Shown here: positions 2,075-40,089 of the stretch, piece after piece
How the letters are laid out: each line of letters opens with the position of its first letter
Numbering within the stretch: the first letter of the stretch is position 1
Source of the DNA: Pseudodesulfovibrio profundus
GTDB lineage: Bacteria; Desulfobacterota; Desulfovibrionia; Desulfovibrionales; Desulfovibrionaceae
Assembly: GCF_900217235.1 (NCBI RefSeq)
Contig: NZ_LT907975.1
Location: 2,827,001 to 2,891,000 of the forward strand
Reading direction: 5' to 3'
DNA length: 64,000 nucleotides
Made by a program: the position numbers and the translations under genes
Notes under the pieces: generated by a model
Told to the model about the DNA's origin: nothing
The model's database searches: none
The model's input: the letters and a program-made list of their open reading frames with translations, nothing else

Positions 2075-3097
2075 ATGGGGCAGTTCACCATCAAGGATTT
2101 GGCCCGGAAGCTCTCGATTTCCCCGTCCACTGTGTCTCGGGCTTTGCGCGATCATCCAGACATCAGTAAAGAGACCAAACGGCGAGTCGTTGAAGCCGCC
2201 GAAAAATATCACTACCAGCCCAATCAGCTCGCACAGTCCCTGCAAAAGCGCCGTTCCAGCACCATCGGGGTCATTGTCCCGGAAATCCGACATCATTTCT
2301 TTTCCACCGTCATCAGCGGCATCGAAGAGGTCGCTTATGAGCACGGCTACACCATCATGGTGTGCCAATCCAACGAAACCATCGAGCGCGAAATCATCAA
2401 CACGCAGGCACTGGTTGCCAACCGCGTGGCCGGTCTGCTTATCGCCATTTCCTCGGAAACAACGCGCTTCGAGCACCTTGAGAGCGTCATTCGCCGCTCC
2501 GTGCCACTGGTCCAGTTCGATCGGGTCGTGGAGGAGCTGGATACCAGCAAGGTCGTGGTTGATGACTACAAGGCCGCCTATGAAGCGGTGGAGCACCTGA
2601 TTCAGGCAGGCTACCGGCGTATCGGCCATATGGCGGGGCAGGACGGCATTGCCCTCAACCATCATCGATTCCTGGGATACCGGGACGCCCTCCGCGATCA
2701 TGGTCTGGAATATGACAGTCGTTGGCACCTGCATGGCGGTTACCGCGAAGATGACGGTCGGGTCGGAGCAGCAAAATTTCTGGCCATGGATGAGATGCCG
2801 GACGCCATTCTCGCCATCAACGATCCCGTGGCAGTCGGGCTGTTCTCGGAGTTCAAAAAAGCGGGGTTGCGCATACCGCACGACATCGCGCTGGTCGGAT
2901 TTTCCGATACCCCGGCTGCGGCTCTTATCGATCCGCCATTGACCACCGTGTACCAACCCGCATTCGAAATGGGGCAGACGGCTGCATCACTTTTACTAAA
3001 GCAATTTGATACAGATGATGATATGATCGCTCCCGAAAAAGTAACCTTGGCTACAAAATTGTTGGTTCGCGGTTCATCCCGGCCAAAGGGGGCCTAA
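2075..3097 (+). CDS. LacI/GalR-family transcriptional repressor
   Basis: DNA-binding regulator of 340 residues, probably controlling the surrounding sugar operon. The N-terminus (about residues 4-50) has the classic LacI helix-turn-helix and hinge, with TIKDLARKLSISPSTVSRAL followed by the YHYQPN hinge segment. Residues 60-335 form a periplasmic-binding-protein-like effector domain (SSTIGVIVPEI; DAILAINDPVAVGLF; VALVGFSD-like segment). It lies inside the operon between galK and galM, an arrangement expected for a local autoregulated repressor that responds to the imported sugar or a metabolite. The stop overlaps the galM start (TAATG). A LacI-type central-CG palindrome lies before the binding-protein gene at 5335-5346, a plausible target. 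The effector is not identifiable from sequence. Confidence 0.92.
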   Translation: MGQFTIKDLARKLSISPSTVSRALRDHPDISKETKRRVVEAAEKYHYQPNQLAQSLQKRRSSTIGVIVPEIRHHFFSTVISGIEEVAYEHGYTIMVCQSNETIEREIINTQALVANRVAGLLIAISSETTRFEHLESVIRRSVPLVQFDRVVEELDTSKVVVDDYKAAYEAVEHLIQAGYRRIGHMAGQDGIALNHHRFLGYRDALRDHGLEYDSRWHLHGGYREDDGRVGAAKFLAMDEMPDAILAINDPVAVGLFSEFKKAGLRIPHDIALVGFSDTPAAALIDPPLTTVYQPAFEMGQTAASLLLKQFDTDDDMIAPEKVTLATKLLVRGSSRPKGA

Positions 3098-4152
3098 TGG
3101 AAGTAGTGCGGGAGAAATGGGGACAATTGAAGGACGGGCGCTGGGCAGAGCGTTTTACCCTGTCCAATGCCAGAGGAATGCAGGCTGTCGTAACCAATTA
3201 TGGCGCGACATTGATCGGCCTGACAGCGCCGGATAATAACGGCAATATGGCCGATGTCGTACTGGGGTTTGATACGCTGGACGAGTATGTTCATGGTCGC
3301 GGCTATTTCGGCGCGACCATCGGGCGCGTTGCCAATCGTCTTTCCGGCGGCAGTTTCATGCTGGATGGCAAGGTCCATGAGGTGGTCCAGAACAAGGATG
3401 GATTCCAGATTCACGGTGGCGCAGGTGGATTTCACTCCCGGTTGTGGGAAGCGGAAATCCGCAACGACGTTACCGGCTCCAAGCTGATCCTTTCCTATCG
3501 CAGCGAGGACGGGGAAGAGGGGTATCCCGGTAATGTTGATGTACAGGCCGTCTTTTCCATGATCGAAAATGGGCTGCGGATGGAGTATCGGGCAGCGACC
3601 GACACCCCGACCGTGCTGACCATGACCAACCACGCCTATTTCAATCTGAGCGGCCGAGGGGCTGACTCCATTCTTGATCACGTGGTCACACTGAATGCCA
3701 GCGGCTGGCTGCCCACGGATGAAAAGCAGATTCCCACAGGTGAAGTGGCCGAAGTTGCCGGTACACCGTTGGACTTTTCCCGGCCAACCGCCATCGGGCT
3801 TCGGATCGATGAATCCTTTCCGCCTCTGGAACTGGCCCATGGCTACGACCATTTCTACATCATTGACGGTGATCCCTGTGAATTGACACCGGCAGCACAA
3901 ATATTTCACGGCGGTTCCGGGCGTGTGCTGGAGGTTTGCACCACGCAGCCCGGATTGCAATTTTACACGGGAAACCACATGGCAGACCGTATCAATGGGA
4001 AACTGGGTGTGCTATATGGACCACGCTCGGGTTTCTGTGTTGAAACGCAAGGGTATGTGGATGCGCCCAATCGACCGGAATTCCCTGCCGTTACACTGCG
4101 GCCCGGGGAAACGTATCATCATGTAACCGAATACCGCTTCTCGAACATGTGA
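3097..4152 (+). CDS. galM: Aldose 1-epimerase (mutarotase)
   Basis: Interconverts alpha and beta anomers of galactose or glucose so that galactokinase gets the alpha form. The 351-residue protein shows family marks: NYGATLIGL near the start, [12 protein letters not shown] (sugar-binding Asn-Arg), QIHGG (catalytic His region), a [12 protein letters not shown] segment holding the second catalytic His, HGYDHFY, and the late FYTGNH and [19 protein letters not shown] segments with the catalytic Glu. Length matches the family. It starts within the stop codon of the repressor gene, so it is in the same transcript. A gap of only 28 bases separates it from the transporter ATPase, linking galactose metabolism and uptake. 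Confidence 0.94.
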
Positions 4153-4180
4153 GGCTGAAACTAGCGACCAAGGTACTGCA

Positions 4181-5278
4181 ATGGCGAATGTTCAACTGAA
4201 GAAAGTGATCAAACGGTATGGTTCCGTGGAAGTGGTCCACGGCATCGACCTGGAGATTCAGGATAATGAATTCATCGTGCTGGTCGGTCCGTCCGGGTGC
4301 GGCAAATCGACGGTTCTGCGTATGGTGGCAGGGCTGGAAGAGATCAGCGGTGGCGAGATCGTCATCGGTGACAGGGTGGTCAATCAGGAATCGCCCAAAG
4401 ATCGAAACGTGGCCATGGTTTTCCAGAACTACGCTCTGTATCCCCACATGTCCGTGCGTGAAAACATGGGCTTCTCGCTTAAGATGAGCAAGTGGAGCAA
4501 AGAGGATATCAACGCCAAGGTGGCCGAGGTTGCCCATATCCTTGAGCTGGAGCCGTATCTGGACCGCAAACCATCGGAGCTTTCTGGCGGCCAGCGCCAG
4601 CGCGTTGCCATGGGGCGCGCCATGGTGCGCGAGCCCGATGTGTTCCTTTTTGATGAGCCGCTGTCCAACCTCGACGCTCAGCTTCGCACGCAGATGCGCA
4701 TGGAACTGCGCAAGATGCATATGCGTCTGGCAACCACCACCATCTATGTCACCCACGACCAGATCGAGGCCATGACCCTGGCTGATCGTATCGTCATCCT
4801 CAAGGATGGACATATTCAGCAGGTCGGCACGCCCATCGACGTATTCGAGGACCCCAACAACGTGTTTGTGGCCCAGTTTATCGGTAATCCGCCCATGAAC
4901 ATCCTAGAAGGCGTTTGCCATATCCAGGACGGCAAGCGGTCGGTGAAAGTCGGGGCTTCAACATTCCCGGTGATCGACGGCAAGGCCGAGGCTTTGGAGG
5001 ACGGTGCGCCCGTTCTGGTGGGGCTTCGACCGGACTCCATCAAAATGGGCGACAACATCGAGAAACTGCCCAAAGAATGGTGGTGTCGTGGTGAAGTGGT
5101 CGTGTCGGAAATCCTTGGCGGACAATCCCATCTGGAGATCGTCGTGGATGGGGAGAATCAACTGATCGCCGAGGTAGAGGGACGGGTGATCGCCCATCCC
5201 GGTGAAATTGTTCCCATCGGTTTCGAATTTGACAGAATGGTCTTGTTCGATCCGGAGACAACCAATGCGCTTCGTTGA
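4181..5278 (+). CDS. ABC sugar transporter ATPase (MalK/UgpC/MsmK type)
   Basis: Cytoplasmic ATPase that powers the sugar importer encoded downstream. The 365-residue sequence has Walker [10 protein letters not shown] at 36-44, Q-loop [11 protein letters not shown] near 82-92, signature [14 protein letters not shown] at 134-147, Walker B FLFDEP at 155-160 and H-loop [10 protein letters not shown]. The C-terminal third (about 235-365) is a TOBE/OB-type regulatory domain as in MalK. Placement right after galM and before the binding protein and two permeases gives a full importer. A chloroplast- or iron-type specificity is unlikely because the partners are of the CUT1 carbohydrate type. Family assignment is firm; the sugar (galactose, a galactoside or an oligosaccharide) is inferred from context. 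Confidence 0.93.
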
Positions 5279-28944: not shown

Positions 28945-30240
28945 ATGTTAGAGAGATATTCCCGCCCGGAAATGAGAAATTTGTGGACCCTGGAGAATAA
29001 ATTCCGGGTATGGCTTGAAGTGGAACTGGCCGTGACCCGGGCCTGGGCGGATATGGGGGAAGTCCCCATGGAGGCCTACGAAGATATCGCCGCAAAGGCG
29101 GACTTCGAGCTGGATCGTATCCTCGAAATCGAGGAAACCACCAAACATGACGTTATCGCCTTTCTTACCGCTGTAGAGGAAAAGGTCGGCGCCAACTCCC
29201 GGTACATCCATCTTGGCTGCACCTCTTCGGATATCGTCGATACCGCCAATGGCGTGCTGCTGACCCGTTCCGCCGACATCCTGGCTACAGGCATTGAGCG
29301 TATCCTCGCCGTGCTCAAGGAAAAAGCCCACGCCCACAAAGGCTTGATCTGCATGGGACGCACCCATGGCATCCATGCCGAGCCGACCACATACGGCCTC
29401 AAATTTGCCGGTTTCTACGCCGAGTTCAAGCGCCATCAGGAGCGCTTCGAGGCGGCTCGCGAGAATATCCGTGTCGGTAAACTCTCCGGTGCGGTCGGAA
29501 CGTTCGCACACCTCAGCCCCGAGCTTGAGGAACGCACCTGTGCCATTCTCGGCCTGAATCCCGATCCGCATTCCACGCAGATCGTGCAGCGCGATCGCTA
29601 TGCCCAGTTCTTTACCTCCCTCGCCATGCTGGCCGGTGGTATCGAGCGCCTCGGGCTGGAGTTGCGCCACCTGCAGCGGACAGAAGTTCTCGAAGTCGAA
29701 GAAGGATTTTCCAAGGGGCAAAAAGGCTCTTCCGCCATGCCGCACAAGAAAAACCCGATCTCCGCTGAAAATCTGTGCGGTCTGGCCCGTGTCATCCGGT
29801 CCAACTCCGTGGCCGCCATGGAAAACCAGGCCCTGTGGCACGAACGTGATATCTCCCACTCTTCAGTTGAACGTGTTATAATGCCTGACACCACCGCTCT
29901 GATGGATTACATGTTGCATCGCATGTCCGGTGTTCTGGAGCGTCTGGTGGTCAAGGAAGACAACATCGAGCGTAACCTGCTTGGGTCGTTCGGTCTGTTC
30001 TACTCCCAGCGTGTGCTGAATAAACTCATCGCTACCGGCCTGAAGCGTCAGGAAGCGTACGAGATGGTCCAGAAAGTGGCCATGCGATGCTGGGAAGGCA
30101 AAGTGCAGTTCGAGGATGAAATCCGTAAGGATGCGGAAGTAAACAAGCATCTTGCGGCTAACGAACTTGACGAAGCGTTCGACCCCTCGTATTACAAACG
30201 CTATGAGGATGTGGTCTTTACCCGCGTCTTCGAGGATTAA
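28945..30240 (+). CDS. purB: Adenylosuccinate lyase
   Basis: Catalyses two fumarate-releasing steps of purine synthesis (SAICAR to AICAR, and adenylosuccinate to AMP). The 431-residue protein has the fumarase/aspartase-superfamily signature GSSAMPHKKNPISAEN near residue 263-278, the SSDIVDTANGVLL substrate loop, and MGRTHGIHAEPTTYG with the general acid His. Length is that of the bacterial short PurB form. It is followed five bases later by pyrE, so purine and pyrimidine synthesis genes share a transcript. Confidence 0.96.
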   Translation: MLERYSRPEMRNLWTLENKFRVWLEVELAVTRAWADMGEVPMEAYEDIAAKADFELDRILEIEETTKHDVIAFLTAVEEKVGANSRYIHLGCTSSDIVDTANGVLLTRSADILATGIERILAVLKEKAHAHKGLICMGRTHGIHAEPTTYGLKFAGFYAEFKRHQERFEAARENIRVGKLSGAVGTFAHLSPELEERTCAILGLNPDPHSTQIVQRDRYAQFFTSLAMLAGGIERLGLELRHLQRTEVLEVEEGFSKGQKGSSAMPHKKNPISAENLCGLARVIRSNSVAAMENQALWHERDISHSSVERVIMPDTTALMDYMLHRMSGVLERLVVKEDNIERNLLGSFGLFYSQRVLNKLIATGLKRQEAYEMVQKVAMRCWEGKVQFEDEIRKDAEVNKHLAANELDEAFDPSYYKRYEDVVFTRVFED

Positions 30241-30245
30241 TATCT

Positions 30246-30806
30246 ATGAAAGAAATGAAAACAAAGCTCGCCAAACTGTTGCTTGAACTCTCTTACCGTG
30301 AAGGCGATTTCACGCTGACATCCGGCAAGAAAAGTGATTACTACTTCGACTGCAAGCAGACGGCTTTGCATGCTGAAGGCAGCTATCTTATCGGGCGGCT
30401 TTTCGTTGAAATGCTCAAGGATTTCGATTGTAAAGGTGTTGGTGGCATGACTCTGGGGGCTGATCCCCTGGTGTCGAGCGTGACCGTGGTATCCCACCTG
30501 GAAGGACTCCCGATGCCGGGATTCATCATTCGCAAGAAATCCAAGGGACACGGCACCAATCAATATCTTGAAGGTTTGGCCAATTTCGAAGAAGGTGATC
30601 GGGTCGTCTTGCTGGAGGACGTTTGTACCACTGGCGGCACACTGATCACCGCAGCCGAATGCGTGCGGGACGCAGGGCTGGAAATTGCCGGAGTTCTGGC
30701 TGTATTGGATCGAGAGGAAGGCGGACGGGAAAAGCTTGCGGAAGCAGGATTGGAGCTTCACTCCATCTTCACCCGCGCCGAGCTGTTGGCCGCCGGAAGA
30801 GGGTAG
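30246..30806 (+). CDS. pyrE: Orotate phosphoribosyltransferase
   Basis: Makes OMP from orotate and PRPP in pyrimidine synthesis. 186 residues with the PRPP-binding motif RVVLLEDVCTTGGTLITAAE near 120-140 and the KSDYYFDCKQTALHAEG N-terminal substrate segment typical of the thermophile/deltaproteobacterial PyrE type. It is tightly linked to purB. A 53-base gap separates it from the YkuD gene, which may be in the same transcript because no terminator is seen. Confidence 0.95.
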   Translation: MKEMKTKLAKLLLELSYREGDFTLTSGKKSDYYFDCKQTALHAEGSYLIGRLFVEMLKDFDCKGVGGMTLGADPLVSSVTVVSHLEGLPMPGFIIRKKSKGHGTNQYLEGLANFEEGDRVVLLEDVCTTGGTLITAAECVRDAGLEIAGVLAVLDREEGGREKLAEAGLELHSIFTRAELLAAGRG

Positions 30807-30859: not shown

Positions 30860-32119
30860 ATGCGATTAGTTACTGCCATACTATCAATACTAGTGTTTGC
30901 CGTCCCGGCCTTGGCCGAAGGATGGGCGACGAAGCTCTCCTCGCACAACTATGGGCCGGAACGGCTTATTGCTGTGGAGAAGCAGTCCCAGACGTTCATG
31001 ATGTTTGAACGTAAATCGCCCCTGCGTGAGGTTCGACGTTTCCCGTGCACCACGGGACAGTTGACTGGTGACAAACTGGTCGAAGGCGACATGCGCACTC
31101 CCGAGGGAGTGTATTTTGTTGGCCCCAAGATCAATCGCACGCTCAATTGGGATTTGTACGGGAACCTGGCGTACTCTCTCAACTACCCGAATCCGATAGA
31201 TAAAATTAAAGGAAAGACCGGAAGCGGCATCTGGATCCATGGCCGTGGCAAGGAATTCCTGCCCCGCGACACTCTTGGATGTGTGGCGCTCAAGGTGCCG
31301 GACATGCTCGATGTGTCCAAGGAGTTTGAATTCGGCACACCGGTTGTCATTGCCCGTGATGTTGAGTGGACACCCGAGCCGGGCGAAGCCGACAAGGTTG
31401 CCAAGCAGTTGGCAGCGCGGCTGCAGGCCTGGGCGCAGGATTGGGAAGGGCAGAATGATGCCTTTTTCCAGCATTATGATTCGGCGCTGATGTCCGTTTC
31501 CGAAGGCAGTTCCTTCAACAGTTTTGTTTCGCACAAAAAGAATGTCTTTGCCGCCAAACCGTGGATTCACGTCATGGTCGATAACATTCGTGCCATTCCC
31601 GGGCCTGATTACTGGGTCACGTGGTTTGATCAGTATTACCGTACCTCCGGCATGGTTTCCATGACCGGCAAGCGGTTTTACTGGATGCGCGATGCGGAAG
31701 GCGAGTGGCGTATCGTCGGTCGTGAATACGTTCCGGCCGGGGAAGACCTGAAAGACAAATATCTTGCCGTCAAATCCGAAGAAGTCCGTGAAGTCATTGA
31801 TGCGTGGCGCGATGCATGGCTGAGCATGAATGCGGACGCTTACGGTGAACTGTACAGCCGCGATGCAGTACAGGGAAATCGGAGAGGCGCAAGTCGCATT
31901 ATTGATTATAAAAAGGCGTTGTGGGCCAAGACTCCACCTGTTACTGTGCACGTTGATGACCTGAAGATTTCCACACACCCCAAAGGGCTTCAGGTAGCCT
32001 TTGTGCAACGTTTCGAGGATGCGGGCGGTTATTCCGATATCGGTCGTAAGACCATGGTGATGGTCCCGGACGGGGCTACATGGAAAATCGGTAGCGAACA
32101 TTGGAGACGGGGTCGATGA
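30860..32119 (+). CDS. Secreted YkuD-fold peptidase/transpeptidase with two NTF2-like domains (Csd6-like)
   Basis: 419 residues from ATG 30860; the frame is open into pyrE but that part is antisense-like shadow. A signal peptide covers 1-19 (cleavage after ALA). Residues 35-165 are a YkuD L,D-transpeptidase fold with IWIHGRG (His127, Gly128) and RDTLGCVALKV (catalytic Cys141, in place of the common SxGC). Two NTF2/SnoaL-like repeats follow (about 190-300 and 305-419), each with an AWxxxW start and a final W-R-I/W-K-I-G strand. In Helicobacter Csd6 and Bdellovibrio Bd1075 this architecture belongs to L,D-carboxypeptidases that trim tetrapeptides and set cell curvature. It overlaps the next gene by four bases (ATGA). 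Specific activity here is inferred. Confidence 0.88.
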   Translation: MRLVTAILSILVFAVPALAEGWATKLSSHNYGPERLIAVEKQSQTFMMFERKSPLREVRRFPCTTGQLTGDKLVEGDMRTPEGVYFVGPKINRTLNWDLYGNLAYSLNYPNPIDKIKGKTGSGIWIHGRGKEFLPRDTLGCVALKVPDMLDVSKEFEFGTPVVIARDVEWTPEPGEADKVAKQLAARLQAWAQDWEGQNDAFFQHYDSALMSVSEGSSFNSFVSHKKNVFAAKPWIHVMVDNIRAIPGPDYWVTWFDQYYRTSGMVSMTGKRFYWMRDAEGEWRIVGREYVPAGEDLKDKYLAVKSEEVREVIDAWRDAWLSMNADAYGELYSRDAVQGNRRGASRIIDYKKALWAKTPPVTVHVDDLKISTHPKGLQVAFVQRFEDAGGYSDIGRKTMVMVPDGATWKIGSEHWRRGR

Positions 32120-32820
32120 GCAATTCCAAATACAGCGTTTTATTCATGCGGGATGACCGGGATGTCACTCGCTATCGCATAAGTCCATTCTGGTTGAAGA
32201 TATTCGTCTTCTCCCAGGTGTTCCTCTTATTGTGTGCCGCTGGTGGAATTTACATGGGCGTTCGCGGTTTCAAGCTGAACAACAGGCTTCAGGTTGAAAA
32301 CAAGGGTCTGGAACAGCGACTCGTGGATGCGGAAGTCCGGCTTGAACGACTGGGCAACATGGAGAAGATTCTTCAATCCTACGATCCGGCCGAACTCCAA
32401 TCGCTCCTTTCCGCAGCAACAAGTGACGTTGAGCAGGCTCCCGAGCCGGTGGAAATCGACCTGAACAAAGTTTTCACCCGTGTGGATACGCAGCAGGTTG
32501 GCGTGGAAAATCTCCAGGCCAAGATTTCCGGGCGCAAAGTCAGTATCAGTTTTGAATTGAATAATCTGCAGGCTTCAAAGGCCGTTACCGGGACAATTGA
32601 TGTCAAGGTCGTCAAGAAGGACGGCTCCACAAGCGTGCCGGAGGTCAAGAAAAGCGATTTGAGCTTCCAGATTCAGCGTTTCAAACGAATCAAAACCACG
32701 TTCCTTCTGCCTGAAGGTGTAGAACAGAAGGATTTGTTCGGACTGCGACTCGAAATCAAGAGCAAGGGCGGGGAAATCTTTTTTGCGGAAACCTATCCTA
32801 TCTATCATATCCGTTCTTAG
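32116..32820 (+). CDS. Bitopic coiled-coil membrane protein of unknown function
   Basis: 234 residues from ATG 32116, which overlaps the YkuD stop. A cytoplasmic N-tail of about 25 residues (SNSKYSVLFMRDDRDVTRYR) precedes one membrane segment (about 28-50), a coiled coil (about 55-92) and a probably beta-rich periplasmic domain. The N-tail with MRDD and RISPFWLK is reminiscent of the membrane-linked M23 and scaffold proteins of epsilonproteobacteria. Position between the two peptidoglycan-trimming enzymes suggests a scaffold or regulator, comparable in role to Csd5 though no homology is claimed. Its last 38 bases overlap the start of the M14 gene. Confidence 0.8.
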   Translation: MSNSKYSVLFMRDDRDVTRYRISPFWLKIFVFSQVFLLLCAAGGIYMGVRGFKLNNRLQVENKGLEQRLVDAEVRLERLGNMEKILQSYDPAELQSLLSAATSDVEQAPEPVEIDLNKVFTRVDTQQVGVENLQAKISGRKVSISFELNNLQASKAVTGTIDVKVVKKDGSTSVPEVKKSDLSFQIQRFKRIKTTFLLPEGVEQKDLFGLRLEIKSKGGEIFFAETYPIYHIRS

Positions 32821-34516
32821 TCTGATCCTGCTCGCAGCCACGACAGCGCTTGCCGGTTCCTGGGAACACTCCTTTTTCGGAGGTACACAGTACCCGTTAC
32901 GGGTCGTGTATCTGGAAGGCAGTGAGCCGGGGCCGACGGTCATGGTACAAGGCGGCATCCAGGGTGACGAAACCGCTGGCTTTGTCACGGCACAGTTACT
33001 GACGCAGGCCAAAGTCACCAAAGGCAATGTCATCATCCTGCCTCGGGCCAATGTGCCTTCCATCAACCTGCGCAAGCGGCAGGTGAACGTGGATATGAAC
33101 CGGCGGTTCGACCAGAACTACAACCGGTTTTATGAAGATCGTGTCGCCCGGGTCATCCGATTCCTGTTGGCACAGTCGGACGCCTTCATCCATCTGCATG
33201 AGGGAAGCGGTTTCTATCATCCCACTTATGTGGACAATCTTCGCAATCCCAATCGATACGGACAGTCCATCATCATTGATACGCTCCATTACGGTGGTAT
33301 CGATCTCGAAGCCACGGCCAACTCCGTCCTCGATGAACTGAATCGCGGGATTCTCTCTTCCGACTATCATTTCAGACTGTTCAATACCAAGACCTTTGAT
33401 ACGGGTACCAGTTACCCCGAGATGCGTAAGTCGCTGACTTGCTATGCGCTTTCCGAGCACGGTATCCCGGCCATGGCTGTGGAGGTCAGTAAGGATATCA
33501 TCCAGCTGGACTGGAAGGTGCGACAGCAACTCCACGCTACCATCATGCTGCTGGACCGCCTGGGCGTTACGGTCACTGCGCCCGATTTCAGCGACAGCGA
33601 TGTACGTGCTTATTCGCGGACTAACGTACAGGTACAGGTGAACGGCCGCATCATGCAGGGCGATGCCTCGCTGGTTCTCGCTCCCGGGACCACTCTCGCT
33701 GTGGAGTCACTGGCTTCCGGACCAAGTGAATTTGCTCCTGAGTTGGCGCTGTTTGCCTCTGATCGTCCTGGCGTAAATCTGCTGAATGCCCATCGTATGG
33801 CCCTTGAGCCGTTTTCCGAGTTGGAGTTGCGCAGCGACGGCAAGCGTGTTGCCAGGGCTCGTGTCAAATGGACGGGCAAGATGCCCAATTCACCCGGGAA
33901 CGACAAGACGGTCTTTGTCTGCTGGCTCAATGGGAATCCGACCTTTGTCCGTGAGGGCGAAGTGCTGAATACTGTGTTCGGGGATCAACTGATCCTTGAA
34001 GGCATATGGGGCAGCGACAAACAGGAAGTGGTCAACCTCAAAGGGTTTGTCGCCATTCCCTGGGCCAATAATGGTCAGGATATGGGCTGGGAGATCATTC
34101 TCGACCCAGAAACGTTTCTGAGCAAGTACAGCCTTGAATCCAGCCGTCCCGGCGTGACACGATACCGTGTTGTACGTGAAACGCCCGGTACACGGCCTGC
34201 GACTTTCTATATCGACATCGAGCCGCGTCGAATCCATGCATTGCGTTTGGCGGACAAGCAGGGGCGCTCCCTGTTCATTCCATGGAATCCCGGCGGCAGC
34301 TATTCTCTTCCTGAGGGGGAGTATGTTCTTGAGGACGCATGGAGTAACGGTCCAGGTGACAAGCTGGTCGCTACCACAGGAGAAGTGCCCGTATCAACCG
34401 GTCATGGCTTCAAGGTGGATTATGCGAACCCGTTGCAGCTTACCGTGCGTCAGGCAACCACGTTTGCCGGAATCGGGACGATGACGTTTACGGCTTCTGG
34501 TTTGGCAGAACGATAG
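32783..34516 (+). CDS. Secreted M14-fold carboxypeptidase with Gln-type zinc site (Csd4/Pgp1-like)
   Basis: 577 residues starting at TTG 32783 inside the preceding gene; the signal peptide begins at once (MRKPILSIISVLSLILLAATTALAG), so this rare start is well supported. The zinc-site motif reads VMVQGGIQGDE, giving Gln60 and Glu63 where most M14 enzymes have His and Glu; the third ligand is His137 or His139 in FIHLHEGSGFYHP. VDMNRRFD supplies the carboxylate-binding Arg and AMAVEVSK the general base Glu. A Gln first ligand is known from Helicobacter Csd4, a D,L-carboxypeptidase that removes the terminal meso-diaminopimelate of tripeptides. About 300 C-terminal residues form beta-rich domains, as in Csd4. 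The substrate is inferred. Confidence 0.85.
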   Translation: MRKPILSIISVLSLILLAATTALAGSWEHSFFGGTQYPLRVVYLEGSEPGPTVMVQGGIQGDETAGFVTAQLLTQAKVTKGNVIILPRANVPSINLRKRQVNVDMNRRFDQNYNRFYEDRVARVIRFLLAQSDAFIHLHEGSGFYHPTYVDNLRNPNRYGQSIIIDTLHYGGIDLEATANSVLDELNRGILSSDYHFRLFNTKTFDTGTSYPEMRKSLTCYALSEHGIPAMAVEVSKDIIQLDWKVRQQLHATIMLLDRLGVTVTAPDFSDSDVRAYSRTNVQVQVNGRIMQGDASLVLAPGTTLAVESLASGPSEFAPELALFASDRPGVNLLNAHRMALEPFSELELRSDGKRVARARVKWTGKMPNSPGNDKTVFVCWLNGNPTFVREGEVLNTVFGDQLILEGIWGSDKQEVVNLKGFVAIPWANNGQDMGWEIILDPETFLSKYSLESSRPGVTRYRVVRETPGTRPATFYIDIEPRRIHALRLADKQGRSLFIPWNPGGSYSLPEGEYVLEDAWSNGPGDKLVATTGEVPVSTGHGFKVDYANPLQLTVRQATTFAGIGTMTFTASGLAER

Positions 34517-34565: not shown

Positions 34566-34763
34566 ATGACTGTTGAGCGAATTGTGCGTGGAATGGCAGG
34601 TTTTTTCATTCTGGTCAGCTTGTTGCTGGCCCACTTCCACTCCCCTTACTGGCTTTGGTTCACCGCATTTGTCGGAATGAACCTGTTCCAGTCTTCATTG
34701 ACCAACTGGTGTCCGGCCATGACTATTCTCAAGCGTATAGGGTTCAAGTATTCCTGTCCCTAA
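34566..34763 (+). CDS. DUF2892 small membrane protein
   Basis: 65 residues with two membrane segments (IVRGMAGFFILVSLLLAHF and WLWFTAFVGMNLFQSS) and the typical end TNWCPAMTILKRIGFKYSC. This is the YgaP C-terminal domain in stand-alone form (DUF2892); the conserved GMNLFQSSLTNWCP stretch is diagnostic. In other genomes it sits with rhodanese or respiratory genes. Ribosome site GAGGTG before the ATG. Confidence 0.85.
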   Translation: MTVERIVRGMAGFFILVSLLLAHFHSPYWLWFTAFVGMNLFQSSLTNWCPAMTILKRIGFKYSCP

Positions 34764-36892: not shown

Positions 36893-38794
36893 ATGTCGAA
36901 TCTGCTTCTACTTCTCATTCTCCTGCCTGCCGCAGCTGCTTTGGTCTGCTATCTGGTTCGGTCCAGTGCCGTTCGTAAGCTGACTGTTGTAGCCACCGGT
37001 GCGATCTTGACGCTCGCATCGCTGGGTCTGTTGGCGCAGGGAACATTTGAACCGATTATGGTCGGTTCATTTCTTGGCATCAGCAGCGATTTCCTGATCA
37101 CGGTCCTGGATTTCGCACTGTTGGGTGTCATCTTTTATTATGGTCTCAAACACCGGAGTCTCCTGATTCAGGGTTTCACCCTGGCACAGGCTGCTCTGCT
37201 CGTTTGGTTTGAGTTCGTTATGATCGATCATGTGGCGGTTCCCGCCCTGGTCGGCGACCAGCTTTCCCTGATCATGGTTCTGGTGATTTCCGTCATCGGT
37301 TCCCTGATCTGTATCTTTGCCATTCCTTATATGAAGGAACATGAAGATCATCTGCATTTGAAGACGTCCCGCCAGCCGCGGTTCTTCCTCTTCCTGCTTC
37401 TCTTCCTGGGCGCCATGAATGGTCTGGTCCTTTCCAACAACATTCTGTGGCTCTACTTCTTCTTTGAAGTCACGACGCTGTGTTCCTTCATGCTCATCGG
37501 GCATGACGGCACCGAAGTTGCCACTCGCAACTCTGTTCGCGCCCTGTGGATGAACTCCTTCGGCGGCGTAGCTTTCGTCATCGGCATGATGCTGGTGTAC
37601 GCAAAAATCGGCACCCTCGACATCTCTGCCATTCTGGCAGCCGGTCCGCAGGGCGCGATGATGGTTACCGGTATCGGTTTCCTGTGTCTTGCCGGTTTTA
37701 CCAAAGCCGCTCAGGTTCCTTTCCAGTCCTGGCTGCTCGGTGCCATGGTTGCCCCGACTCCGGTCTCCGCGTTGCTGCACTCCTCGACCATGGTCAAGGC
37801 CGGTGTCTACGTGGTTCTGCGCTTTGCTCCCGCCTACATGGGGACATTGCTCTCCGATGGCGTGGCTATCTGTGGCGCGTTTACCTTCGTTGCCTGTGCC
37901 GCCCTGTGTATCGGCCAGTCCAATGGTAAGAAAATCCTGGCGTACTCAACGGTTTCCAACCTGGGCCTGATCATCTGCTGTGCGGGTATCAACACTCCGC
38001 TGGCCACCACCGCTGCGGTGATGCTGATCATCTTCCACGCCATTTCCAAGTCCTTGCTCTTCCTGTGCGTTGGCACCATTGAGCAGGCTATCGGTTCTCG
38101 CGATATCGAGGACATGCGCGGTCTGTTCACCAAGCATCCCCGCACTGCCCTGATCACGATCATCGGCATCCTGACCATGCTGCTGCCCCCGTTCGGTGTG
38201 CTCATGGCCAAGTGGATGGCTATCGAAGCTGCTTCCGCCAACATCTACGTCATCATCATGCTGGCCATGGGCTCTGCCCTGACCGTCGTGTACTGGGCCC
38301 GTTGGGCCGGTTCCCTGATGGCAAGCCGCGACGCTGATGCTCCGGCCGAACAGCAGGCTACCCTGATCCGCATTCCGCTGATGGCCCTGTGTGCAGGTGC
38401 TGTCGTGTTGTCCATCGCTGCCCCGTGGATTTACAACTCCATGCTGGCACCCATGTTCGATGCGCCTCCCTTCGCACTTCAGTTCGGTTCGCTGACAGCT
38501 TCCACCGGCTCCTTCGCCGTTGTCCCGCTGTTCATCGTACTCGGTCTGGGCGTCATTTATGCTGCCAAGGCTGCATCCGGATTCCGCAAGGCCAAGGTCA
38601 TGCCGCCGTACGTTGGCGGTGCCAACGTGGTTGGTGACAATGACGGTGCATATGTTGGTCCCATGAATGGAACCGTACCGTTCGTCGCTTCCAATATGTA
38701 CCTGGGCGAGCTGTTCGCCGAAGGCAAGCTTACTCCGGTCTTCAACGCTCTGGCGGTCGCGCTGATCGTCCTCATGCTGGGAGGAGCTCTCTAA
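36893..38794 (+). CDS. echA: Ech hydrogenase subunit A (NuoL/MrpA-like antiporter)
   Basis: Large ion-translocating membrane subunit of the energy-converting [NiFe] hydrogenase, which couples ferredoxin oxidation and H2 formation to ion pumping. The 633-residue protein has about 16 membrane segments and the proton-antiporter core: FFFEVTTLCSFMLIGHDGTEVATRN and, later, AAQVPFQSWLLGAMVAPTPVSALLHSSTMVKAG, the NuoL/M/N signature with the conserved Lys and His. ATG is preceded by GAGGTC. The stop overlaps echB (TAATG). Known EchA proteins are of nearly the same length. First gene of a six-gene operon. Confidence 0.95.
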   Translation: MSNLLLLLILLPAAAALVCYLVRSSAVRKLTVVATGAILTLASLGLLAQGTFEPIMVGSFLGISSDFLITVLDFALLGVIFYYGLKHRSLLIQGFTLAQAALLVWFEFVMIDHVAVPALVGDQLSLIMVLVISVIGSLICIFAIPYMKEHEDHLHLKTSRQPRFFLFLLLFLGAMNGLVLSNNILWLYFFFEVTTLCSFMLIGHDGTEVATRNSVRALWMNSFGGVAFVIGMMLVYAKIGTLDISAILAAGPQGAMMVTGIGFLCLAGFTKAAQVPFQSWLLGAMVAPTPVSALLHSSTMVKAGVYVVLRFAPAYMGTLLSDGVAICGAFTFVACAALCIGQSNGKKILAYSTVSNLGLIICCAGINTPLATTAAVMLIIFHAISKSLLFLCVGTIEQAIGSRDIEDMRGLFTKHPRTALITIIGILTMLLPPFGVLMAKWMAIEAASANIYVIIMLAMGSALTVVYWARWAGSLMASRDADAPAEQQATLIRIPLMALCAGAVVLSIAAPWIYNSMLAPMFDAPPFALQFGSLTASTGSFAVVPLFIVLGLGVIYAAKAASGFRKAKVMPPYVGGANVVGDNDGAYVGPMNGTVPFVASNMYLGELFAEGKLTPVFNALAVALIVLMLGGAL

Positions 38795-39642
38795 TGGATA
38801 CTCTGATACTGATCATCATCGGCATTGTGGTCGGCCCGCTTGTCGGCGGCCTGATCGCCGGTCTCGACCGCCGCGTCACCGCCTGGTTCCAGTCTCGACA
38901 GGGACCGCCGGTCATGCAGGCATTCTATGATGTGGCCAAACTCTTCGGTAAGGAGAAAATGGTCGTCAACCAGTGGCAGATCTTCTGTGCGTGGATCTAC
39001 CTGATCGCAGCCGCCGTTTCGGTTGGTCTGTTCTTCGCTCAGGGCGACCTGCTGCTGATCTTCTTTGTTCAGGCCGTTGGTGCGGTTTTCCTGGTCATGG
39101 GTGCCATGGCTGCGAAATCCCCGTACTCCCAGGTCGGCGCCCAGCGCGAGCTGATGCAGATTCTGGCTTACGAGCCGGTTCTGATCCTCGTCTTCGTCGG
39201 CTTCTACCTGACCACGGGCAGCTTCTCCATCGAAGCCGTGTGGCAGCTCGAAGAGCCGCTGCTGGCCAAGATGCCGCTGCTGTACCTGGCTCTGGGTTAC
39301 GCCCTGACCATCAAGCTGCGGAAGTCTCCCTTTGACTTCTCCACTTCTCACCACGGTCACCAGGAACTGGTAAAGGGTGTACTCACCGAGTACTCCGGCC
39401 CCTACCTGGCCCTGGTCGAGATCGCTCACTGGTACGAAACCGTATTGGTTCTCGGCCTGTGTGCCCTGTTCTGGAGCACGAACCTGTTCTGGATGGGTGC
39501 GCTTCTGCTCGGTACCTATATGCTCGAAATCCTGGTGGACAACACCATGGCCCGTATGACCTGGCGCTGGATGCTGAAGCGTGTCTGGCTGCTCGGCATG
39601 GGCATGTCCGTCGTTAACCTCATCTGGCTGTACGCGGGGTAA
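38794..39642 (+). CDS. echB: Ech hydrogenase subunit B (NuoH-like)
   Basis: 282-residue membrane subunit anchoring the hydrophilic arm. It has about eight membrane segments and the NuoH-family marks GLDRRVTAWFQSRQGPPVMQ near residues 25-45, MAAKSPYSQVGAQRELMQILAYEPVLIL, and KSPFDFSTSHHGHQELVKG with the conserved acidic and His residues at the quinone-site equivalent. It overlaps echA by one base and precedes echC by three. Confidence 0.95.
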   Translation: MDTLILIIIGIVVGPLVGGLIAGLDRRVTAWFQSRQGPPVMQAFYDVAKLFGKEKMVVNQWQIFCAWIYLIAAAVSVGLFFAQGDLLLIFFVQAVGAVFLVMGAMAAKSPYSQVGAQRELMQILAYEPVLILVFVGFYLTTGSFSIEAVWQLEEPLLAKMPLLYLALGYALTIKLRKSPFDFSTSHHGHQELVKGVLTEYSGPYLALVEIAHWYETVLVLGLCALFWSTNLFWMGALLLGTYMLEILVDNTMARMTWRWMLKRVWLLGMGMSVVNLIWLYAG

Positions 39643-39645
39643 ATC

Positions 39646-40089
39646 ATGTTCGGTTCATTCATAAAGAAATCTCGCGCCAAATCTCCGTGGATCATGCACT
39701 TTGACTGCGGTAGCTGCAACGGATGCGATATCGAGGTTCTGGCCTGCCTGACACCGCTCTACGACGTGGAACGGTTCGGCATCATCAACGTTGGTAACCC
39801 CAAGCACGCCGATGTGCTGCTGGTCACCGGCACAGTCAACCACCGGAACAAGAAGGTGCTCAAGAACATCTATGATCAGATGCCCGAGCCCAAAGCCGTT
39901 ATCGCCATTGGCGCTTGCGGTAACACCGGTGGCGTCTTCCGCGATGCATATAACGTTGTCGGTGGTATCGACAAAGTTATCCCCGTGGATGTCTACGTGC
40001 CCGGTTGCCCTGCCAAGCCCGAAGCCATCATTGATGGCGTTGTCGCCGGTTTGGCCAAGTTCGCAGAAAAAGTGGAACAGGCCGACTAG
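39646..40089 (+). CDS. echC: Ech hydrogenase small subunit (NuoB-like, proximal cluster)
   Basis: 147 residues carrying the proximal [4Fe-4S] cluster ligands: CGSCNGCD near residue 23-30, GACGNTGG near 88-95 and VPGCPAKPEAI near 118-128. This four-Cys pattern is that of group 4 hydrogenase small subunits. It passes electrons from EchF to the NiFe site in EchE. The short N-terminus lacks a Tat signal, as expected for a cytoplasmic-side enzyme. Confidence 0.95.
   Translation: MFGSFIKKSRAKSPWIMHFDCGSCNGCDIEVLACLTPLYDVERFGIINVGNPKHADVLLVTGTVNHRNKKVLKNIYDQMPEPKAVIAIGACGNTGGVFRDAYNVVGGIDKVIPVDVYVPGCPAKPEAIIDGVVAGLAKFAEKVEQAD

Follow-up and report, generated by a model that had tools for sequence, protein, structure and literature searches.

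The closest described relatives of the genes considered here are the LD-carboxypeptidases Csd6, Pgp2 and Bd1075, in which a small residue replaces the transpeptidase Arg two positions after the catalytic Cys (PMC8938487), and the Csd4/Pgp1 enzymes. Pgp2 produces the tripeptide that is cut by Pgp1, and pgp2 and pgp1 lie within 300 bp of each other in Nitratiruptor, Nautilia, 'Desulfococcus deovorans' (the paper's spelling) and Persephonella (PMC3961634). The M23 peptidase LmdC is recruited to bactofilin by a cytoplasmic hairpin (PMC10945521). Here we describe an operon of three genes, csd6-mid-m99, from Pseudodesulfovibrio profundus (Desulfovibrionaceae, Desulfobacterota), located in a stretch of 64,000 nucleotides (contig NZ_LT907975.1, positions 2,827,001 to 2,891,000) that we call the window. 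We propose its middle protein, MID, as a concrete and directly testable candidate for directing periplasmic carboxypeptidases of the Csd6 and Csd4 kinds to one part of the wall: it is conserved between both enzymes, certain lineages have it as a fusion with one of the two, and gene adjacency and joint loss connect it with bactofilin. The three overlapping genes of the initial annotation were borne out by open reading frame (ORF) calls:

30860..32119, + strand: gene 1, csd6-like, 419 aa, assigned from Pfam, nearest solved structures and active-site residues
32116..32820, + strand: gene 2, MID, 234 aa, assigned from its structure model, synteny and the bactofilin links of its relatives
32783..34516, + strand: gene 3, m99, 577 aa, TTG start, assigned from the Peptidase_M99 profile

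Genes 1 and 2 overlap by 4 bp and genes 2 and 3 by 38 bp; a longer ORF for MID, with a TTG start at 32101, was judged less likely than the start at 32116. Our best reading, with a probability of about 0.6, is that the three genes specify trimming of the stem peptide in two steps together with a membrane adaptor, MID anchoring the trimming enzyme or enzymes and coupling them to bactofilin. What was computed is the assignment to gene families, the conservation of active-site residues, the synteny, the fusions, and the adjacency and joint loss of bactofilin; from these we infer the enzymatic activities, the contacts of MID with the Csd6-type enzyme and with bactofilin, the faces that would touch, whether the M99 enzyme is also held by MID, and the effect on cell shape.

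Gene 1 matched the Pfam families YkuD (60.2 bits), Cds6_C (86.6 bits, in two stretches) and SnoaL_3 (22.4 bits), and its nearest solved structures by sequence were Bd1075 (4.6e-33), Csd6 (5.8e-24) and Pgp2 (5.3e-23). The N-terminus resembles a signal peptide when judged by eye, and the catalytic residues His127 and Cys141 are present. Among 156 aligned csd6 rows, some of them incomplete at the locus ends, the catalytic His was found in 125 (20 gaps) and the Cys in 123 (21 gaps). Two residues after the Cys, where gene 1 has Ala143, the same alignment showed Ala in 97 rows, Val in 23, Ser in 5, Thr in 5, and no Arg. Gene 1 is thus predicted to be a secreted LD-carboxypeptidase of the Csd6/Pgp2/Bd1075 class, an assignment to class that is well supported. 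The architecture had been equated with that of Csd6 and Bd1075. A YkuD enzyme with two NTF2-like domains was indeed found, but the architecture is not the same, as Bd1075, Csd6 and Pgp2 are described with a single NTF2 domain each. Two Cds6_C matches, counted by eye, occurred in 95 of the 103 Desulfovibrionaceae genomes having a match. In the Solidesulfovibrio loci and in Desulfovibrio sp. DV (L159-L162, L164) the Csd6-type protein reaches 717-820 residues, about 300-400 beyond that of the window. At locus L089 (genome G047, 3603-4508) the csd6-like gene consists of the two NTF2 domains alone; MID is retained there, and the genome has no M99 match.

Gene 3 had been described as an M14-fold enzyme with a Gln zinc ligand as in Csd4. 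This was confirmed by its match to Peptidase_M99 (119 bits), by Csd4 as nearest solved structure by sequence (4.1e-27), and by the alignment of the Gln of its QGDE motif with the Csd4 position changed to His in the Gln46His entry 4wcm. The Gln-x-x-Glu...His metal motif, two Arg and the catalytic Glu are present in gene 3 and invariant in 23/23 operon rows. Across 165 wider M99 rows the first zinc ligand is Gln in 159, His in 5 (L126, L127, L203, L206, L215) and Asp in 1 (L193), and no MID gene was found beside these His- or Asp-ligand relatives.

An M99 enzyme was detected in 101 of the 119 family genomes. High-scoring matches (53, at least 252.7 bits) were never within 10 kb of MID, and 45 of the 50 low-scoring ones (79.8-140.4 bits) lay directly downstream of it; one further match fell below the cut-off, and G099 was the only family genome with both kinds. 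We placed these enzymes in a tree of 126 rows (domain of at least 195 residues, duplicates removed) by a quick method without bootstrap, some long branches, Csd4's included, being flagged. Csd4 of H. pylori grouped with the high-scoring, unlinked family enzymes (99% Shimodaira-Hasegawa-like approximate likelihood ratio test, SH-aLRT), and gene 3 of the window fell within the operon group (100% SH-aLRT). Gene 3 is therefore best regarded as an operon-bound sister of Csd4, predicted to be a secreted M99 peptidase with DL-carboxypeptidase activity; its class is well supported and its activity deduced from it. Of the likeness to Csd4 first proposed, the Gln-Glu-His zinc site stands. Orthology was rejected, since the tree places gene 3 outside the Csd4 clade.

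The gene order recurs well beyond the window. A survey of gene order revealed csd6 directly 5' of MID in all 46 family regions and in 36 of the 37 named loci; the 37th, L164, was missed because its ORF start extends too far upstream. M99 directly follows MID in 24 of these regions and in 23 of these loci. The phylum sample comprised 297 genomes, 286 of them outside the family, where M99 was found in 47 (two of them, G119 and G158, below the family cut-off), Cds6_C in 64 and both in 44. In 37 of the 44, representing 18 families, M99 has csd6 upstream in the same orientation, at a distance of 138-1397 bp, and 32 of these 37 operons have a MID domain in the locus. This count depends in part on a MID profile, A4, built from 18 sequences of loci L242-L261, so that those loci are recovered by construction; the MID of L254 and L261 was first assigned from position and architecture alone. 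Seventeen further linked regions had MID in 12, of which G205 and G260 are also in A4. With csd6 directly 5' of MID in nearly all regions, the clustering exceeds chance. The compact pairing of both enzymes proposed earlier thus recurs across the phylum sample, but it is not new, adjacency of the enzyme genes having been reported in 2014 for four species (PMC3961634). What is new is MID and the bactofilin link; neither MID, nor a MID-Csd6 fusion, nor the csd6-mid-m99-bactofilin arrangement was found in the open-licence papers searched.

No Pfam family matched MID at E values up to 1. Its structure model consists of helices at residues 24-88 and 91-102 followed by an immunoglobulin (Ig)-like beta-sandwich at 116-234, suggesting a bitopic protein with a short cytoplasmic N-terminus, a membrane helix continued as a coiled coil, and a periplasmic Ig-like domain. 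In G286 and G134 Csd6 continues at its end into the C-terminal domain of MID, and G206 has a fused plus a free MID copy. Because the enzyme to which the domain is joined carries a secretion signal, these fusions support its periplasmic location. Together with the phylum-wide synteny they also favour the earlier suggestion that the middle protein is a scaffold, and we predict MID to be an adaptor that would contact the Csd6-type enzyme. An LmdC-type M23 peptidase was considered for MID and rejected, given the lack of a Pfam match and the Ig-like model of the C-terminal domain. No SH3 family, the feature of Csd5, appeared among the Pfam matches (E up to 0.01) of 30 MID members. At L147 and L257, the MID frame is interrupted in the draft genome of Salidesulfovibrio brasiliensis and M99 extends over two frames in G189, through either assembly error or decay.

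Three kinds of evidence point to the bactofilin cytoskeleton, which the initial annotation had not raised, as the likely partner of MID. Firstly, A4 also finds proteins that match the N-terminal part of MID alone. Twenty of them were drawn from the top matches, with at most one per genome and a few skipped; 18 of the 20 were M23 peptidases, a rate biased by this non-random choice. In the window genome, an M23 peptidase comes second among the A4 matches, through its N-terminus (21.3 bits). Secondly, among the 37 linked operons outside the family, 15 have a bactofilin gene, confirmed by Pfam in each case, on the same strand at 1.2 kb or less, covering 9 of the 18 families. It may precede or follow the operon, at 907 bp in G157 and G252 and within 121 bp or overlapping in the other 13. 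Twenty further regions around MID relatives included 18 without csd6 in the stretch, and in 8 of these bactofilin adjoins MID. The distance is 19-40 bp in seven of them; in the eighth, L328 (G250, 2132-4767), it is 346 bp, and the order there is M23 peptidase, bactofilin and MID on one strand. Elsewhere, G342 has MID beside purB on one contig (L325) and bactofilin, csd6 and M99 together, without MID, on another (L348). At L287 (G343) a 175-residue MID-like membrane protein (1034-1558), with no Pfam family, is encoded just upstream of a bactofilin (1775-2116).

Thirdly, bactofilin and the operon are lost together. Bactofilin occurs in 91 of the 99 family genomes with a completeness of at least 90%, and csd6, MID, M99 and bactofilin are all without a match in seven (G006, G026, G059, G070, G073, G103, G115). 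MID and bactofilin are both present in 90 of the 99, both missing in 7 and discordant in one each way, giving a Fisher value of 4e-9 that is uncorrected for phylogeny and comes without a control gene family; the MID/bactofilin table for all 119 genomes reads 101/3/5/10. G034 has bactofilin and no match for MID. Since genera g6 and g42 hold both kinds of species, more than one loss is likely.

In the mechanism that we propose, gene 1 would take the last D-Ala off tetrapeptides and gene 3 would then take meso-diaminopimelate off the tripeptide. As the Pgp2 product is the Pgp1 substrate, the gene order matches the order of reactions. MID would span the inner membrane, its Ig-like domain keeping the Csd6-type enzyme close to the wall and perhaps doing the same for M99, and its cytoplasmic end would be recruited to bactofilin filaments. 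Trimming might thereby be confined to one zone, so that the cell is bent or otherwise shaped. A stronger version, on which we stay tentative at a little under even odds, is a phylum-widespread machine in which bactofilin binds the MID N-terminus directly and the Ig-like domain holds the LD- and DL-carboxypeptidase side by side, tetra- to tri- to dipeptide trimming being confined to the zone marked by the filament. A role would thereby be predicted for a previously undescribed protein family that is spread over many families of a single phylum.

Several observations weigh against coupling to bactofilin through MID. Where a cytoplasmic hairpin like that of LmdC might lie, the MID model has strands at 6-8 and 20-22, but the mean predicted local distance difference test (pLDDT) score over the first 20 residues is 51-58. 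A profile built from the 24 cytoplasmic residues by themselves performed weakly: all 2638 control ORFs were outscored by 7 of the 20 sampled loci and not by the other 13, in a sample chosen, with bias, by the wider profile, and the M23 peptidase of the window genome did not exceed the controls. The third A4 match in that genome is an unrelated 592-residue frame scoring 20.1 bits, close to the M23 peptidase, and the bactofilins of the same genome are far from the operon. Both enzymes occur together without MID at the locus in G151, G175, G197, G240 and G342, and MID also occurs without csd6. G118 keeps the operon and has no bactofilin match, and the two limits of the Fisher value apply as well. 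Finally, no bactofilin is nearby in 22 of the 37 linked operons or in 10 of the 18 csd6-less MID regions, and work on C. jejuni placed pgp2 in a pathway separate from that of the bactofilin and M23 genes (PMC10151779).

The 22 operons and the C. jejuni result also favour an ordinary wall-recycling or remodelling pathway, in which MID serves Csd6 alone, as a membrane tether or chaperone, and bactofilin is often a neighbour because both are envelope genes, with no contact between them; so do the fusions and the MID-Csd6 pairing, the tightest of all links. We consider this unlikely, as bactofilin stands next to MID in 8 of the 18 csd6-less regions and the family shows joint loss of bactofilin and operon, even though the two are unlinked in the window genome.

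Less probable still is a reading in which curvature is brought about as by Csd4 and Csd6 in Helicobacter, as the initial annotation proposed, and MID is a passive scaffold lacking a cytoskeletal link; bactofilin adjacency and co-loss argue against it. It agrees with the enzyme homology and with reports of Pgp1/Csd4 mainly from curved or helical bacteria, Pgp2 being less restricted. Members of Pseudodesulfovibrio are described as vibrios or curved rods, one species being straight or slightly curved (PMC11505543). Two genomes of this genus, G004 (P. pelocollis) and G046, have no M99 match, and the same is true of G047, whose csd6 gene has no YkuD domain. We take G047 to be Lawsonia intracellularis, presumably also curved. 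M99 is therefore probably dispensable for curvature in some relatives, and we treat the link between operon and curvature as a hypothesis.

The remaining genes near the operon are as follows:

28945..30240, + strand: purB-like (adenylosuccinate lyase), Pfam Lyase_1 and ADSL_C
30246..30806, + strand: pyrE-like phosphoribosyltransferase, Pfam Pribosyltran
34566-34763, same strand as the operon: YgaP-like membrane gene, 65 residues, directly 3' of the operon

The purB-like and pyrE-like genes are conserved upstream neighbours and are excluded from the function proposed for the operon; the YgaP-like gene is excluded from the csd6-mid-m99 unit. Mere co-location, by transcriptional hitch-hiking behind purB-pyrE, would fit five other lone MIDs that retain a purB- or pyrE-like neighbour (L319, L322, L323, with a pyrE-like match just under the cut-off, L324 and L325), but is highly improbable given the identical order in 18 families, the fusions, and the co-loss of csd6, MID and M99 even where M99 is unlinked (genus g42). 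Elsewhere in the window, the genes at 36893-40089 resemble, by eye, components of a membrane hydrogenase of the Ech type or of a related complex.

Compared with known systems, gene 1 shares with Csd6, Pgp2 and Bd1075 the YkuD His and Cys, the small residue at Cys+2, a C-terminal NTF2-like domain and secretion, and, like Bd1075, appears by eye to be without the N-terminal dimerisation domain; it differs in its second NTF2 domain and in having MID directly 3'. Gene 3 differs from Csd4/Pgp1 in belonging to an operon-encoded sister clade, other Desulfovibrionaceae having instead a Csd4-clade enzyme encoded elsewhere in the genome. The enzyme genes are close in the window as in the pgp2-pgp1 neighbourhoods, whose published description mentions, in its account of them, no middle gene and no bactofilin (PMC3961634). 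If the stronger version of our reading is true, the operon would differ from Campylobacter, where LD-carboxypeptidase and bactofilin were assigned to separate pathways, in that one adaptor joins both. Csd5 and Csd7 of H. pylori are, like MID, non-enzymatic transmembrane proteins tied to a bactofilin, CcmA; their descriptions set them apart, Csd5 having an SH3 domain and belonging to a MurF complex and Csd7 to a Csd1/Csd2 complex (PMC9507126). With LmdC, MID would share a common plan in which a short N-terminus in the cytoplasm is followed by a single membrane helix, a coiled coil and a periplasmic domain, and also the bactofilin link (PMC10945521), but MID has an Ig-like domain where LmdC has its M23 peptidase, and is adjoined by separate enzymes.

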